Source: a virus. From it: a stretch of DNA of 64,000 nucleotides. A program made the position numbers and the translations under genes. The notes below the pieces were generated by a model, which was not told the DNA's origin, made no database searches, and was given only the letters and a program-made list of their open reading frames with translations. Positions 18,443-35,485 of the stretch are shown one piece after another (within the stretch, counting starts at the first letter, position 1; the number at the start of each line of letters is the position of its first letter). Where the stretch lies: positions 23,836-87,835 of the IMG/VR virus record IMGVR_UViG_3300033273_000513; one strand, given 5' to 3'.

Positions 18443-19909
18443 ATGGCTTCAGAAATTAGAGTCAATAAAATAAACAGTCGCACTGGTGTGGGGACAATTA
18501 CACTGTCTCCCACTGGTGTAGATTTTACTGGTATTGCAACAGTTGCAACGTTAAAAGCAACTACAGGTATCGTTACAACACTGACAGCAACTACAGGTAT
18601 TGTCACGACATTAACAGTTGACACAACTAGAACCACCACTGGTATTGTTACGACACTGACAGCTGATACTTCTAGAATTACCACTGGTATTGTTACGACA
18701 CTGACAGCGGACACAGCTAAAGTTGGTGCTGCAGTTACCATCTCTGAATCAGGAATGGAGGTAACTGGTGTTACCACAGTCACAAGTTCTATTAACATTG
18801 GTTCAGCAACTACAATCAGTTCTAGTAGTCTTGAAGTAAATGGAGTTCAATATCCGACTGCTGGTGCGTTGAGTAATCGCAACCTGATTATCAATGGTGC
18901 GATGCAAGTGGCGCAGCGTGGAACGAGTCAGACTGGAGTTACTTCTACGACCTATGCCGGTCCAGATCGTTTTCAGCAAATACTTAGTTCGGCTGGAACT
19001 TGGACTATTAGCCAAAGTACAGAAGCGCCCGAAGGTTTTTCGACTTCGTTAAAACTAGACTGCACTACAGCCAAAGCCAGTTTGTCGGCCAGTAATTTGT
19101 ACCTTTTAGGACAAAAAATTGAAGGCTTTAATGTTCAACATTTAGATTACAATACTTCCAACGCAAAAACAACGACCCTTAGTTTTTGGGTCCGATCTAA
19201 CAAAACGGGGACGTATGTTCTCGAAGTCACCTCTAGCACCTCTACTCGCAAAATATCGCAAACTTATACTATTAACTCAGCCAATACCTGGGAAAAAAAG
19301 ACGCTTCAGATACCTGGAGATACGGGTGGCTCCCTTCCAAATACAAACGCTGCTGAGTTTAATGTGTATTGGTGGGTGGCCGCTGGCACTAATTACACAA
19401 GTGGAACGTTAAACACCAACTGGGGAACACCAGCAGACACTAATAGGGCAGTCGGTCAAACAGTAAATCTTGCCGACAGCACTAGCAATGATTTTTATCT
19501 AACTGGCGTCCAACTAGAAGTTGGCGAAAAGGCGACACCGTTTGAGCACAGAAATTATGGCGATGAGCTTGCTAGGTGTCAAAGATATTACTATCGAGTC
19601 AACTCCCAAACTTCCTACAATCCATACGGCTTTGGCTCGAATAGTACCACGAGTGCTGGTCAAGCGATTGTTCAACATCCAGTCGAAATGAGAGTGGTTC
19701 CAAGCTCTTTGGATTATTCTAATCTTGCTTCTACAGTTCTTGGTGTTAGTGACGTTTTAATTACGTCAGCTGCGCTTCTTGCCGTTGGAAACGGTAAACT
19801 TATGTCAACTATAAGTACTTCCTCAAGTGGTGCTTTTACAACAGGGTTTTTTACTTTAACGGCCAAACAAACAACTTCTTCATACATTGGCTTTAGTGCG
19901 GAGCTTTGA
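18443..19909 (+). CDS. Tail fibre-like protein with carbohydrate-binding-like C-terminal domain
   Basis: A 488-residue protein. The N-terminal third consists of TTGIVTTLTADT repeats, three of them nearly identical. From about residue 148 the sequence NRNLIINGAMQVAQRGTSQ starts a ~340-residue domain common to phage fibres, with TLSFWVRSNKTGTYVLEV and DFYLTGVQLEVGEKATPFEHR as further landmarks; related domains are usually regarded as carbohydrate-binding. The next gene, 2 bp downstream, is a small protein of the kind that commonly follows this type of fibre. Confidence 0.82.
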   Translation: MASEIRVNKINSRTGVGTITLSPTGVDFTGIATVATLKATTGIVTTLTATTGIVTTLTVDTTRTTTGIVTTLTADTSRITTGIVTTLTADTAKVGAAVTISESGMEVTGVTTVTSSINIGSATTISSSSLEVNGVQYPTAGALSNRNLIINGAMQVAQRGTSQTGVTSTTYAGPDRFQQILSSAGTWTISQSTEAPEGFSTSLKLDCTTAKASLSASNLYLLGQKIEGFNVQHLDYNTSNAKTTTLSFWVRSNKTGTYVLEVTSSTSTRKISQTYTINSANTWEKKTLQIPGDTGGSLPNTNAAEFNVYWWVAAGTNYTSGTLNTNWGTPADTNRAVGQTVNLADSTSNDFYLTGVQLEVGEKATPFEHRNYGDELARCQRYYYRVNSQTSYNPYGFGSNSTTSAGQAIVQHPVEMRVVPSSLDYSNLASTVLGVSDVLITSAALLAVGNGKLMSTISTSSSGAFTTGFFTLTAKQTTSSYIGFSAEL

Positions 19910-20267: not shown

Positions 20268-20296
20268 ATCCTACTCATGGAACAGAGTCCTGTCAA
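20268..20296 (-). promoter_or_regulatory. Sigma-70-type promoter driving the minus-strand gene
   Basis: On the minus strand TTGACA (20296-20291) is followed by a 17-bp spacer and TAGGAT (20273-20268). An inverted repeat ATCAAC/GTTGAT (20249-20254 and 20264-20269) covers the predicted start of transcription and could be an operator or a leader hairpin. Confidence 0.6.
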
Positions 20297-29366: not shown

Positions 29367-29389
29367 CATGTATTCTATAAGAGTCAAAG
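29363..29389 (+). promoter_or_regulatory. Repeated 27-bp operon element, copy 1
   Basis: TTTTCATGTATTCTATAA followed by GAGTCAAAG. The TATTCT or TATAAG part could be a -10 box and AAAGAAA a weak ribosome site; no -35 box is clear. Fifteen bases from its end to the ATG at 29404. Confidence 0.55.
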
Positions 29390-32221: not shown

Positions 32222-32416
32222 ATGACTGAAACCAAAGACAACATTGTGGATCGTGATGCACTTCAAGAGGCATACATTGAGTCGATTATTGATGGCATGG
32301 ATCATAAAACAATGTACCAATATGTTTATGATAACCTGACAGATCATCTGGATAAGTATAGCGTTGATGAACTGATTACAGAGGTTGAAGATCACTATCC
32401 TGAACTGTTGGAATAG
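32222..32416 (+). CDS. Small acidic conserved cyanophage protein
   Basis: A 64-residue acidic protein taken from the ATG at 32222 (MTETKDNIVDRDALQEAY) and ending VEDHYPELLE. The pattern of MDHKTMYQYVYDNL then YSVDELITEVEDHYP is common in cyanophages. It is the last gene before the largest gene-free stretch in the window. Function unknown. Confidence 0.72.
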   Translation: MTETKDNIVDRDALQEAYIESIIDGMDHKTMYQYVYDNLTDHLDKYSVDELITEVEDHYPELLE

Positions 32417-32536
32417 TTGCTTTTATTCCAAAAATAGGGTAAAATGAGTGTAAATCAATTAAAAAAGGTTCAAAAAAATGTAAATCAGTGTTTTATCCTT
32501 ATTGAGAACTATTCTCTGGATACTACCCAATAGTAT
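32417..32536 (+). other. AT-rich gene-free leader of the 34-bp array
   Basis: No gene is visible. The stretch is A/T-rich with a repeated TGTAAATCA word (near 32450 and 32479), small hairpins GAGAA/TTCTC (32504-32516) and TACTA/TAGTA (32521-32535). Together with the array downstream it has the look of a regulatory or replication region. Confidence 0.5.
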
Positions 32537-32740
32537 GCTCAAATCTTATGAAATGTATGGCTGATGATGTGCTCAAACCTTATGAAATGTTCTCTCTAGT
32601 TCGTGTTAAAGTCTTATGAAATGTGCTGATGATTATGTGCTCAAATCTTATGAAATGTGCTGATGATTATGTGCTCAAATCTTATGAAATGTTCTCTCTA
32701 GTTCGTGTTAAAGTCTTATGAAATGTGCCAGAGTCTTGTT
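32537..32740 (+). repeat. Tandem array of six 34-bp units
   Basis: Six cores begin at 32537, 32571, 32605, 32639, 32673 and 32707, exactly 34 bp apart. The core is GCTCAAATCTTATGAAATGT (units 1, 2, 4, 5; one C change in unit 2) or GTTAAAGTCTTATGAAATGT (units 3 and 6). The 14-bp linkers are of two kinds: GCTGATGATTATGT (after units 3 and 4; a variant after unit 1) and TCTCTCTAGTTCGT (after units 2 and 5). Units 1-3 and 4-6 therefore form a 102-bp duplication. The period is not a multiple of three and every frame is broken by stops. Confidence 0.9.
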
Positions 32741-32804
32741 GTCTAAGCGCGCACGTTATCATGCCGCCGCCCAGTATAAACCACCCCGCCCAGATCTGTC
32801 AACC

Positions 32805-32900: not shown

Positions 32901-33143
32901 ATGCAAACCGCCGCCGACAATCTGATTCAAATTGCCGCTGAGTTGAATGCTGCTGGAAAGCAGGTGAAAGTGACAGTGCTCAAACCACGCAAAGCACGTC
33001 GTTCTGAGTTGATTATGAGCAGCACAAAAGGAGTTCGCACCAACACTAATCGTCGCGGCCAAGCATACACTGGGCACGCCACTTATGCGACTCAGAGCAC
33101 TATTGAGGGTAATCGTTCTGCTTACTTCAAAACATCAGGTTGA
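32901..33143 (+). CDS. Small basic hypothetical protein
   Basis: An 80-residue basic protein starting MQTAADNLIQIAAELNAAG, with KVTVLKPRKARRSELIMSST and a Thr/Gly-rich C-terminus ending YFKTSG. The basic charge suggests nucleic-acid binding, but there is no recognised domain. It stands alone between element copy 5 and a structured noncoding stretch. Confidence 0.66.
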   Translation: MQTAADNLIQIAAELNAAGKQVKVTVLKPRKARRSELIMSSTKGVRTNTNRRGQAYTGHATYATQSTIEGNRSAYFKTSG

Positions 33144-33151
33144 GCGCTTAT

Positions 33152-33216
33152 GAGCACTCTACCATAAGCAGTTCGTGATGTCAAGGGGGGCGCAGTTGTC
33201 CCCCCTACGAGTGCTC
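33152..33216 (+). terminator. Nested inverted repeats, terminator-like or structured RNA
   Basis: The outer pair GAGCACTC (33152-33159) and GAGTGCTC (33209-33216) is perfect. It encloses the inner pair GGGGGG (33185-33190) and CCCCCC (33200-33205). A small GCGC-GAA-GCGC hairpin follows at 33251-33261. No T run follows, so a simple terminator is not certain. Confidence 0.5.
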
Positions 33217-33345
33217 GAATGAGCAGGGTTTTATGGGGGTGTTTATGTAAGCGCGAAGCGCGTATCAAAAAACGCTAACTTCCCTAACCTACAACGAACC
33301 AAAAACGCGCTCGTTATTTACTTTCATATAAAAATTTTTTGCCCC

Positions 33346-34807: not shown

Positions 34808-35485
34808 ATGGCTTGTTTGATTGCAAATCTTCCTTCACAGGAAGTCTGGGTTCGTAAAGAATATTTGACGGATCATCAAAGCGGTCATGGAGAGTTCGTC
34901 AAGGGCGTCTGGGTATCGGTCAAATCGATTCCTGGACGCGCTTTTTATTTTGAGACATACTTACCAGAGTATGCAGCAATGTACGATAAACTCCCCATCA
35001 GTGCGTTTGTGGCGGATCCTGAGACTCCTTCACCTGATATGAGTCTACCTAACCTACAATTCTGGAATTGTATGGATTACGGCGTCGTTTCAGTGGACAA
35101 GAAGTTCATCGGTAGTATGAACTTTGAGTGTTATACCAGAGATCATGGTAATGTCAAAGGCACATATATTTGTACGATAGATAATTATCATCATGATCCA
35201 GATTATGTGGATTGGGCTACGAGTGAAAATCCCGCAGAACACAAGTCACACAACCTGATTGAACTTGAGAATGGACAATACGCATTGTATCCAAACAATC
35301 GATTGCGTATCTATGATAACAGTTTGACACCTGAGACACCCAAGATGCCTGATTTCAAGGTATCGACTCAATATTATCAAGTTGAGAATGGATTTGATCG
35401 TCTCGGCATGGGTCGTGAGGATGAATATTTTTGGAAAACATCAAAAGAACGCCAAACGGAGGAAAAAAATGACACCGAACAATGA
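34808..35485 (+). CDS. Conserved cyanophage protein of unknown function
   Basis: A 225-residue protein starting MACLIANLPSQEVWVRKEYL, with KSIPGRAFYFETYLPEYAAMYDKLP (landmark GRAFYFETYLPEYAA), LQFWNCMDYGVVSVDK and YICTIDNYHHDPDYVDW. Its fixed place ahead of gp25 in cyanophages suggests a structural or assembly role, not demonstrated. The C-terminus (TSKERQTEEKNDTEQ) overlaps the next gene by 17 bp. Confidence 0.76.
   Translation: MACLIANLPSQEVWVRKEYLTDHQSGHGEFVKGVWVSVKSIPGRAFYFETYLPEYAAMYDKLPISAFVADPETPSPDMSLPNLQFWNCMDYGVVSVDKKFIGSMNFECYTRDHGNVKGTYICTIDNYHHDPDYVDWATSENPAEHKSHNLIELENGQYALYPNNRLRIYDNSLTPETPKMPDFKVSTQYYQVENGFDRLGMGREDEYFWKTSKERQTEEKNDTEQ

Follow-up and report, generated by a model that had tools for sequence, protein, structure and literature searches.

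A conserved, single-copy repeat and promoter element upstream of gp25/gp6 in T4-like cyanophages is a candidate replication origin

Anatomy of the locus

The DNA analyzed here, referred to as the window, is a 64-kb portion of an 87.8-kb virus record. Within it, the gap between a DUF7326 gene, which ends at 32416, and an 80-aa ORF at 32901 holds a tandem array, with gp6 located 3.3 kb to the right. The following features were assigned in and beside this gap.

32412–32511 (no strand): AT-rich, low-stability stretch with TGTAAATCA words, the least stable 100 bp of the element and a candidate unwinding element
32499–32536 (no strand): slot TTATTGAGAACTATTCTCTGGATACTACCCAATAGTAT, with the inverted repeats GAGAA-CTA-TTCTC and ATACTA-CCCAA-TAGTAT; DnaA boxes are found here in other phages
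32537–32740 (no strand): six 34-bp units in two 102-bp halves; two units in the nearest relatives
32716–32771 (minus strand): conserved box comprising the last array unit, the predicted initially transcribed region and a -10-like part (profile E = 2e-7)
32773–32802 (minus strand): sigma70-type promoter TTGACA-N18-TATACT with 11/12 consensus matches, kept in contigs L256 and L259
33152–33188 (minus strand): second promoter-like site TTGACA-N17-TAGAGT, with weak similarity to the box in its promoter half (profile E = 0.045)

The array is the top-scoring tandem array of the window (TRF score 344) and consists of six units, each with a 20-bp core and a 14-bp linker, at an exact period of 34 bp. 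The cores start at 32537, 32571, 32605, 32639, 32673 and 32707, exactly where the original prediction had placed them. Of the two core forms it described, cores 1, 4 and 5 (GCTCAAATCTTATGAAATGT) and cores 3 and 6 (GTTAAAGTC...) agree, but core 2 (GCTCAAACC...) is one mismatch off. The 14-bp linker is GCTGATGATTATGT in units 3 and 4 and TCTCTCTAGTTCGT in units 2 and 5; unit 1 carries the variant ATGGCTGATGATGT, and the last linker, GCCAGAGTCTTGTT, merges with the flank. Between the two halves of the proposed higher-order duplication, 87 of 102 positions are identical. Stops in all six frames rule out protein coding; the earlier conclusion that the array is non-coding is therefore correct, but the argument from its period is not, because the 102-bp repeat length is divisible by three. 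A CRISPR array, which would have identical repeats with unique spacers of similar length, was also rejected, since linkers are reused between units and the 102-bp block occurs twice. Elsewhere in the window, a 45-bp tandem repeat at 18596–18719, also a multiple of three, is probably a protein repeat.

The A/T-rich stretch that had been noted just upstream of the array ranks among the window's three least stable places at a length of 100 bp. To the right of the array, the promoter at 32773–32802 is one of only three minus-strand TTGACA-N16-18-TAnnnT sites in 64 kb. It is directed leftward through the units toward the AT-rich stretch and opposite to all neighboring genes. The second site, at 33152–33188, is perhaps the original promoter, with the insertion of a small gene having moved it away from the array. 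On the plus strand, the word TGTATTCTATAAGAGTCAAAG occurs at 29369, 30129, 30589, 31571 and 32868, mostly just before small genes (five copies against 0.02 expected), and looks like a shared early promoter.

Occurrence and conservation among cyanophages

Searching viral contigs with the exact core of the window resulted in no match because the six-unit form is private to the window; it was the flanking sequence that led to the element in other phages. A BLAST match to bajarodmic virus 558, a small unrelated record, was discarded as a short chance match. Loci were gathered via a neighboring 254-aa protein and a right-flank pattern, which resulted in 64 non-redundant examples whose kinship inflates simple statistics. 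From left to right, the element comprises an AT-rich stretch, a swappable slot, one to six units of ~33–34 bp, and a minus-strand sigma70 promoter box. It is ~300 bp in size, present in single copy, and located a few kb upstream of gp25/gp6, although in several relatives the distance to gp6 is greater than in the window, at about 4–15 kb.

Of 21 complete cyanophage genomes, 11 each gave one strong match to the box profile, with two further weak matches in S-CAM9 and one weak match in Syn9, and the element is also present in more than 60 environmental contigs. Carriers among sequenced cyanophages include Bellamy, S-SM2, S-SKS1 and S-SCSM1, whereas the original prediction knew of no such element in T4-like cyanophages. 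In a comparison of syntenic gaps, Bellamy, S-T4 and S-SM2 share the slot or flanks with the window. The profile search of the 21 complete cyanophages did not find the element in about half, including S-PM2, P-HM2, P-SSM2 and P-SSM4, where replication must therefore start elsewhere, and the T4 genome gave no match to the box profile. When the window's own row was left out of the profile, the window was still matched at 32771–32718 (E = 2e-7; best value in the reversed-window control, 0.18), and the R1 match to its conserved box lies at 32789–32718.

Alignment of the 64 examples gave the minus-strand consensus TTGACA-N17-TAGACT followed by GCTCGC-TAAGATCACAAGACC, with TGA preceding the -10 to form an extended -10. 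Conservation of the box is inflated because the loci were partly collected with a box-based pattern; the -35 lies outside that pattern, yet is near-universal (TTGACA in 51/64 non-redundant loci and TTGACT in 9/64). In a few loci the -10 is a full TATAAT displaced by about two bases, and its distance to the -35 is again 17 or 18 bp. In S-SM2 and Bellamy, the element's site is the only minus-strand TTGACA-N17-TAnAnT in each genome, compared with 13 on the plus strand. A GCGAG...CTCGC hairpin in the box is found in some loci but missing in many and was not taken as conserved. An AT-rich stretch is located at the equivalent place in relatives, where it is among the two or three least stable places in S-SM2, Bellamy and Sf-CH5 (60 bp) and in SynMITS9220M01 as well as the window (100 bp); its stability is unexceptional in S-8S55, S-CAM9, S-SCSM1 and S-T4, four of the nine genomes compared.

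The array is, by these comparisons, the variable middle of the element and its least conserved part. L256 and L259 are 94–95% identical to the window over 1.7 kb and contain two units each; the window is longer by exactly 136 bp (4 × 34), so four of its six units are a recent expansion. Judged from these alignments, the six-copy state is recent and the element itself is not. A conserved copy number, set beforehand as a test, was thus not observed (two units vs six), and relatives in general carry between one and six. The period is ~33–34 bp in many relatives, in partial agreement with the expectation of a conserved period, but 31, 35, 20–22 or 12 bp in others. Such differences would be expected if the array were neutral, with slippage or unequal recombination having multiplied a piece of leader between the slot and the promoter, and if only the flanking modules mattered. 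We regard this as unlikely given that unit and period recur across divergent phages: in 59 of 64 loci a first unit is anchored 15–16 bp left of the box, and 17 loci have a second one 33–34 bp beyond it (49–50 bp left of the box). A neutral array would in any case be compatible with an origin function of the whole element. Other repeats were observed near some loci. In L032, L046, L061 and L062 (around 1960–2713), 69–72 bp tandem repeats (AAAGTCATTCGTGATTAGATAAGATTCGTATAG...) lie upstream of the 254-aa gene. Arrays of the words TCTCGACTAGATT / TCTAGTCTAGAT occur in L007 (2680–2900), L095 (3330–3490), L251 (3100–3400) and L066 (739–801), representing S-T4, S-SRM01, S-BM3 and one contig, either apart from the element or just to its right.

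DnaA boxes and their replacement in the slot

The slot of the window is of the TTGAGAA type, and no DnaA box is present in the window's gap. Its sequence is near-conserved in Bellamy and S-T4, and exact copies of the portion CTCTGGATACTACCCAATA are present in 15 viral stretches, adjoining the element wherever the flanking sequence suffices. In other relatives, a cluster of boxes of the kind found in DnaA-dependent origins takes its place. The region left of the promoter in 56 loci contains 63 DnaA boxes of the form TTWTYCACA (TTTTCCACA), compared with 1.9 ± 1.5 in shuffled sequence (maximum of 6 in 200 shuffles). Boxes are present in 29 of the 56 loci, 24 of which have two or more. Same-strand boxes are phased, with 20 of 23 spacings being either 20–22 bp (12 cases) or 41–42 bp (8 cases), which correspond to two and four helical turns. 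Although the motif was picked after being seen, it equals the published consensus of the cyanobacterial DnaA box (PMC4674748, PMC3480399) and tops an unbiased word count, in which TGTGGAAA/TTTCCACA was most enriched (57 occurrences vs 0.9 expected).

Loci without DnaA boxes often carry TTGAGAA-type boxes, and none has both (hypergeometric 5e-6, uncorrected for kinship). When the slot class was mapped onto a tree of the neighboring 254-aa protein, at least 12 changes were counted; many branches of this tree are weak, and the starred ones require 3 to 6 changes in each class. The slot therefore appears to have been swapped as a cassette between close relatives. Phased DnaA boxes in about half of the loci might instead serve as a decoy, holding host DnaA to restrain replication of the host chromosome or to sense the state of the host, with no phage replication starting at the site. 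We consider this very unlikely, as there are just a few boxes per genome, many close relatives have the unrelated TTGAGAA boxes in the slot with the rest kept, and the promoter and AT-rich stretch would be left unexplained.

A candidate origin and its relation to known systems

T4-like cyanophages are among the most abundant marine viruses, yet, to our knowledge, next to nothing of their origins has been mapped. What exists for Syn9 is the prediction of a single theta origin (PMC2984593). We see about an even chance that the element is a replication origin at which host RNA polymerase transcribes into melting DNA, helped by DnaA or another slot-binding protein. At the right end of the element, host RNA polymerase would initiate at the conserved minus-strand sigma70 promoter, and leftward transcription, against the surrounding genes, would cross the ~34-bp units and the slot into the AT-rich stretch. 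A protein bound to the slot would help open this DNA: host DnaA in many relatives and, in the window, another putative protein at the TTGAGAA/GGATACTACC sites. The RNA would then give the phage replisome entry, via an R-loop or transcription-driven melting, with the units serving as extra binding sites or as a spacer whose number can change freely. More tentatively, the element may be a single-copy hybrid of oriC and oriE in which a host-type promoter reads into an unwinding element and host DnaA, or an alternative that can take its place at the slot, acts as initiator, the slot having been swapped repeatedly between close relatives. The layout of an origin or regulator-binding array that the original prediction saw in the repeats fits this larger element, with its conserved order, phased DnaA boxes in relatives, outward promoter and oriE-like position, but not the array as an isolated, conserved structure.

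An origin reading is weakened by several results. Neither GC skew nor AT skew has a consistent extremum at the element in the nine complete genomes, at odds with the predicted change in GC skew and with the switch characteristic of a DnaA-dependent origin. Absence from half of the phages and the unremarkable AT-rich stretch in four of nine genomes also count against it, as do the missing DnaA box in the window's gap and the failure to identify an initiator gene among the ORFs neighboring the element. In the main rival reading, the element would provide promoter and leader for a small RNA, antisense or regulatory, that controls the neighboring early genes, with slot and array as operators or RNA-level repeats and not origin parts. 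This would account for a conserved promoter that opposes all neighboring genes, and CfrI of cyanophage S-PM2 is a known example of an antisense RNA (PMC2984593). We judge it somewhat unlikely, because the structure of the presumed RNA is unremarkable (mean z of −1.45 vs −1.75 for the opposite strand, and 0.14 in the window) and because the DnaA boxes are found beside low-stability DNA and on the downstream side of the promoter, where operators would not usually be expected. A structured RNA was rejected on these z values, which are not strand-specific, and a known RNA family on the lack of any Rfam match.

If the element is an origin, it would share features with several known systems. T4 oriE contains iterons and requires an early promoter (PMC3016281); it is annotated 1.7 kb left of gene 6, with a primer RNA on the minus strand that is complementary to the transcript of gene 5. 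The element is similar in its short direct repeats (six tandem 34-bp units in the window) and in its position within a few kb to the left of gene 6 (3.3 kb in the window vs 1.7 kb in T4). Its conserved minus-strand sigma70 promoter is, by sequence, a candidate for an early-type promoter whose RNA would oppose the late baseplate genes. The T4 repeats, however, are 12 nt and lie within the gene 5 coding sequence, whereas those of the element are ~34 bp and non-coding. In addition, repEA and repEB were not found beside the element, where comparison of the neighboring ORFs with PHROGs and Pfam gave no RepEA/RepEB family match, and DnaA boxes occur in many of its relatives with none reported at oriE. 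With the R-loop origins oriF and oriG of T4, the element shares, at the level of sequence, a promoter that reads into AT-rich, low-stability DNA. The T4 promoters are MotA middle promoters, whereas that of the element is a plain sigma70 -35/-10 (cyanomyoviruses lack motA; PMC2984593), and the element has an array and a box-bearing slot between the promoter and the AT-rich DNA.

About half of the loci have the same 9-bp boxes as bacterial oriC of the cyanobacterial type, helically phased and beside AT-rich DNA. In contrast to oriC, the element has no dnaA or dnaN neighbor, fewer boxes and no skew switch, and it belongs to a lytic phage with its own T4-type replisome and, in the window, with the boxes replaced. 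Iteron plasmid origins also have tandem direct-repeat units adjoining AT-rich DNA, but no adjacent Rep gene was found here, and the number and period of the units vary freely. We know of no T4 origin that uses host DnaA boxes. These boxes and the swappable slot are what is new relative to the known T4 origins, to which the element is otherwise related. A literature search for DnaA boxes or origins in cyanophages, with most subscription journals outside its coverage, found nothing relevant, and the element is likely unreported so far. As a defined 300-bp candidate in the cultured phages Bellamy, S-SM2, S-SKS1 and S-SCSM1, it makes the origin question directly testable. If the origin reading is true, the presence of host DnaA boxes would couple replication of the phage to the cell-cycle initiator of the host, unlike in T4, and repeated swapping of the slot would suggest selection on the choice of initiator.

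Other sequences recur outside the element. The word CCCTAACCTACAA occurs at 33281 (plus strand) in the window, with a second, weaker copy at 35046; in Bellamy, S-SM2 and SynMITS9220M01 it is present as a single copy, 480–730 bp to the right of the box, and in Syn9, P-SSM2, S-SSM7 and S-B05 it lies left of gp25. Most of the nine complete cyanophages have a second recurrent minus-strand promoter, GCTTGACAAG...GAGTAGAAT, about 50–60 kb to the right of the element, and a similar site is present in the window at 20296 (minus strand).
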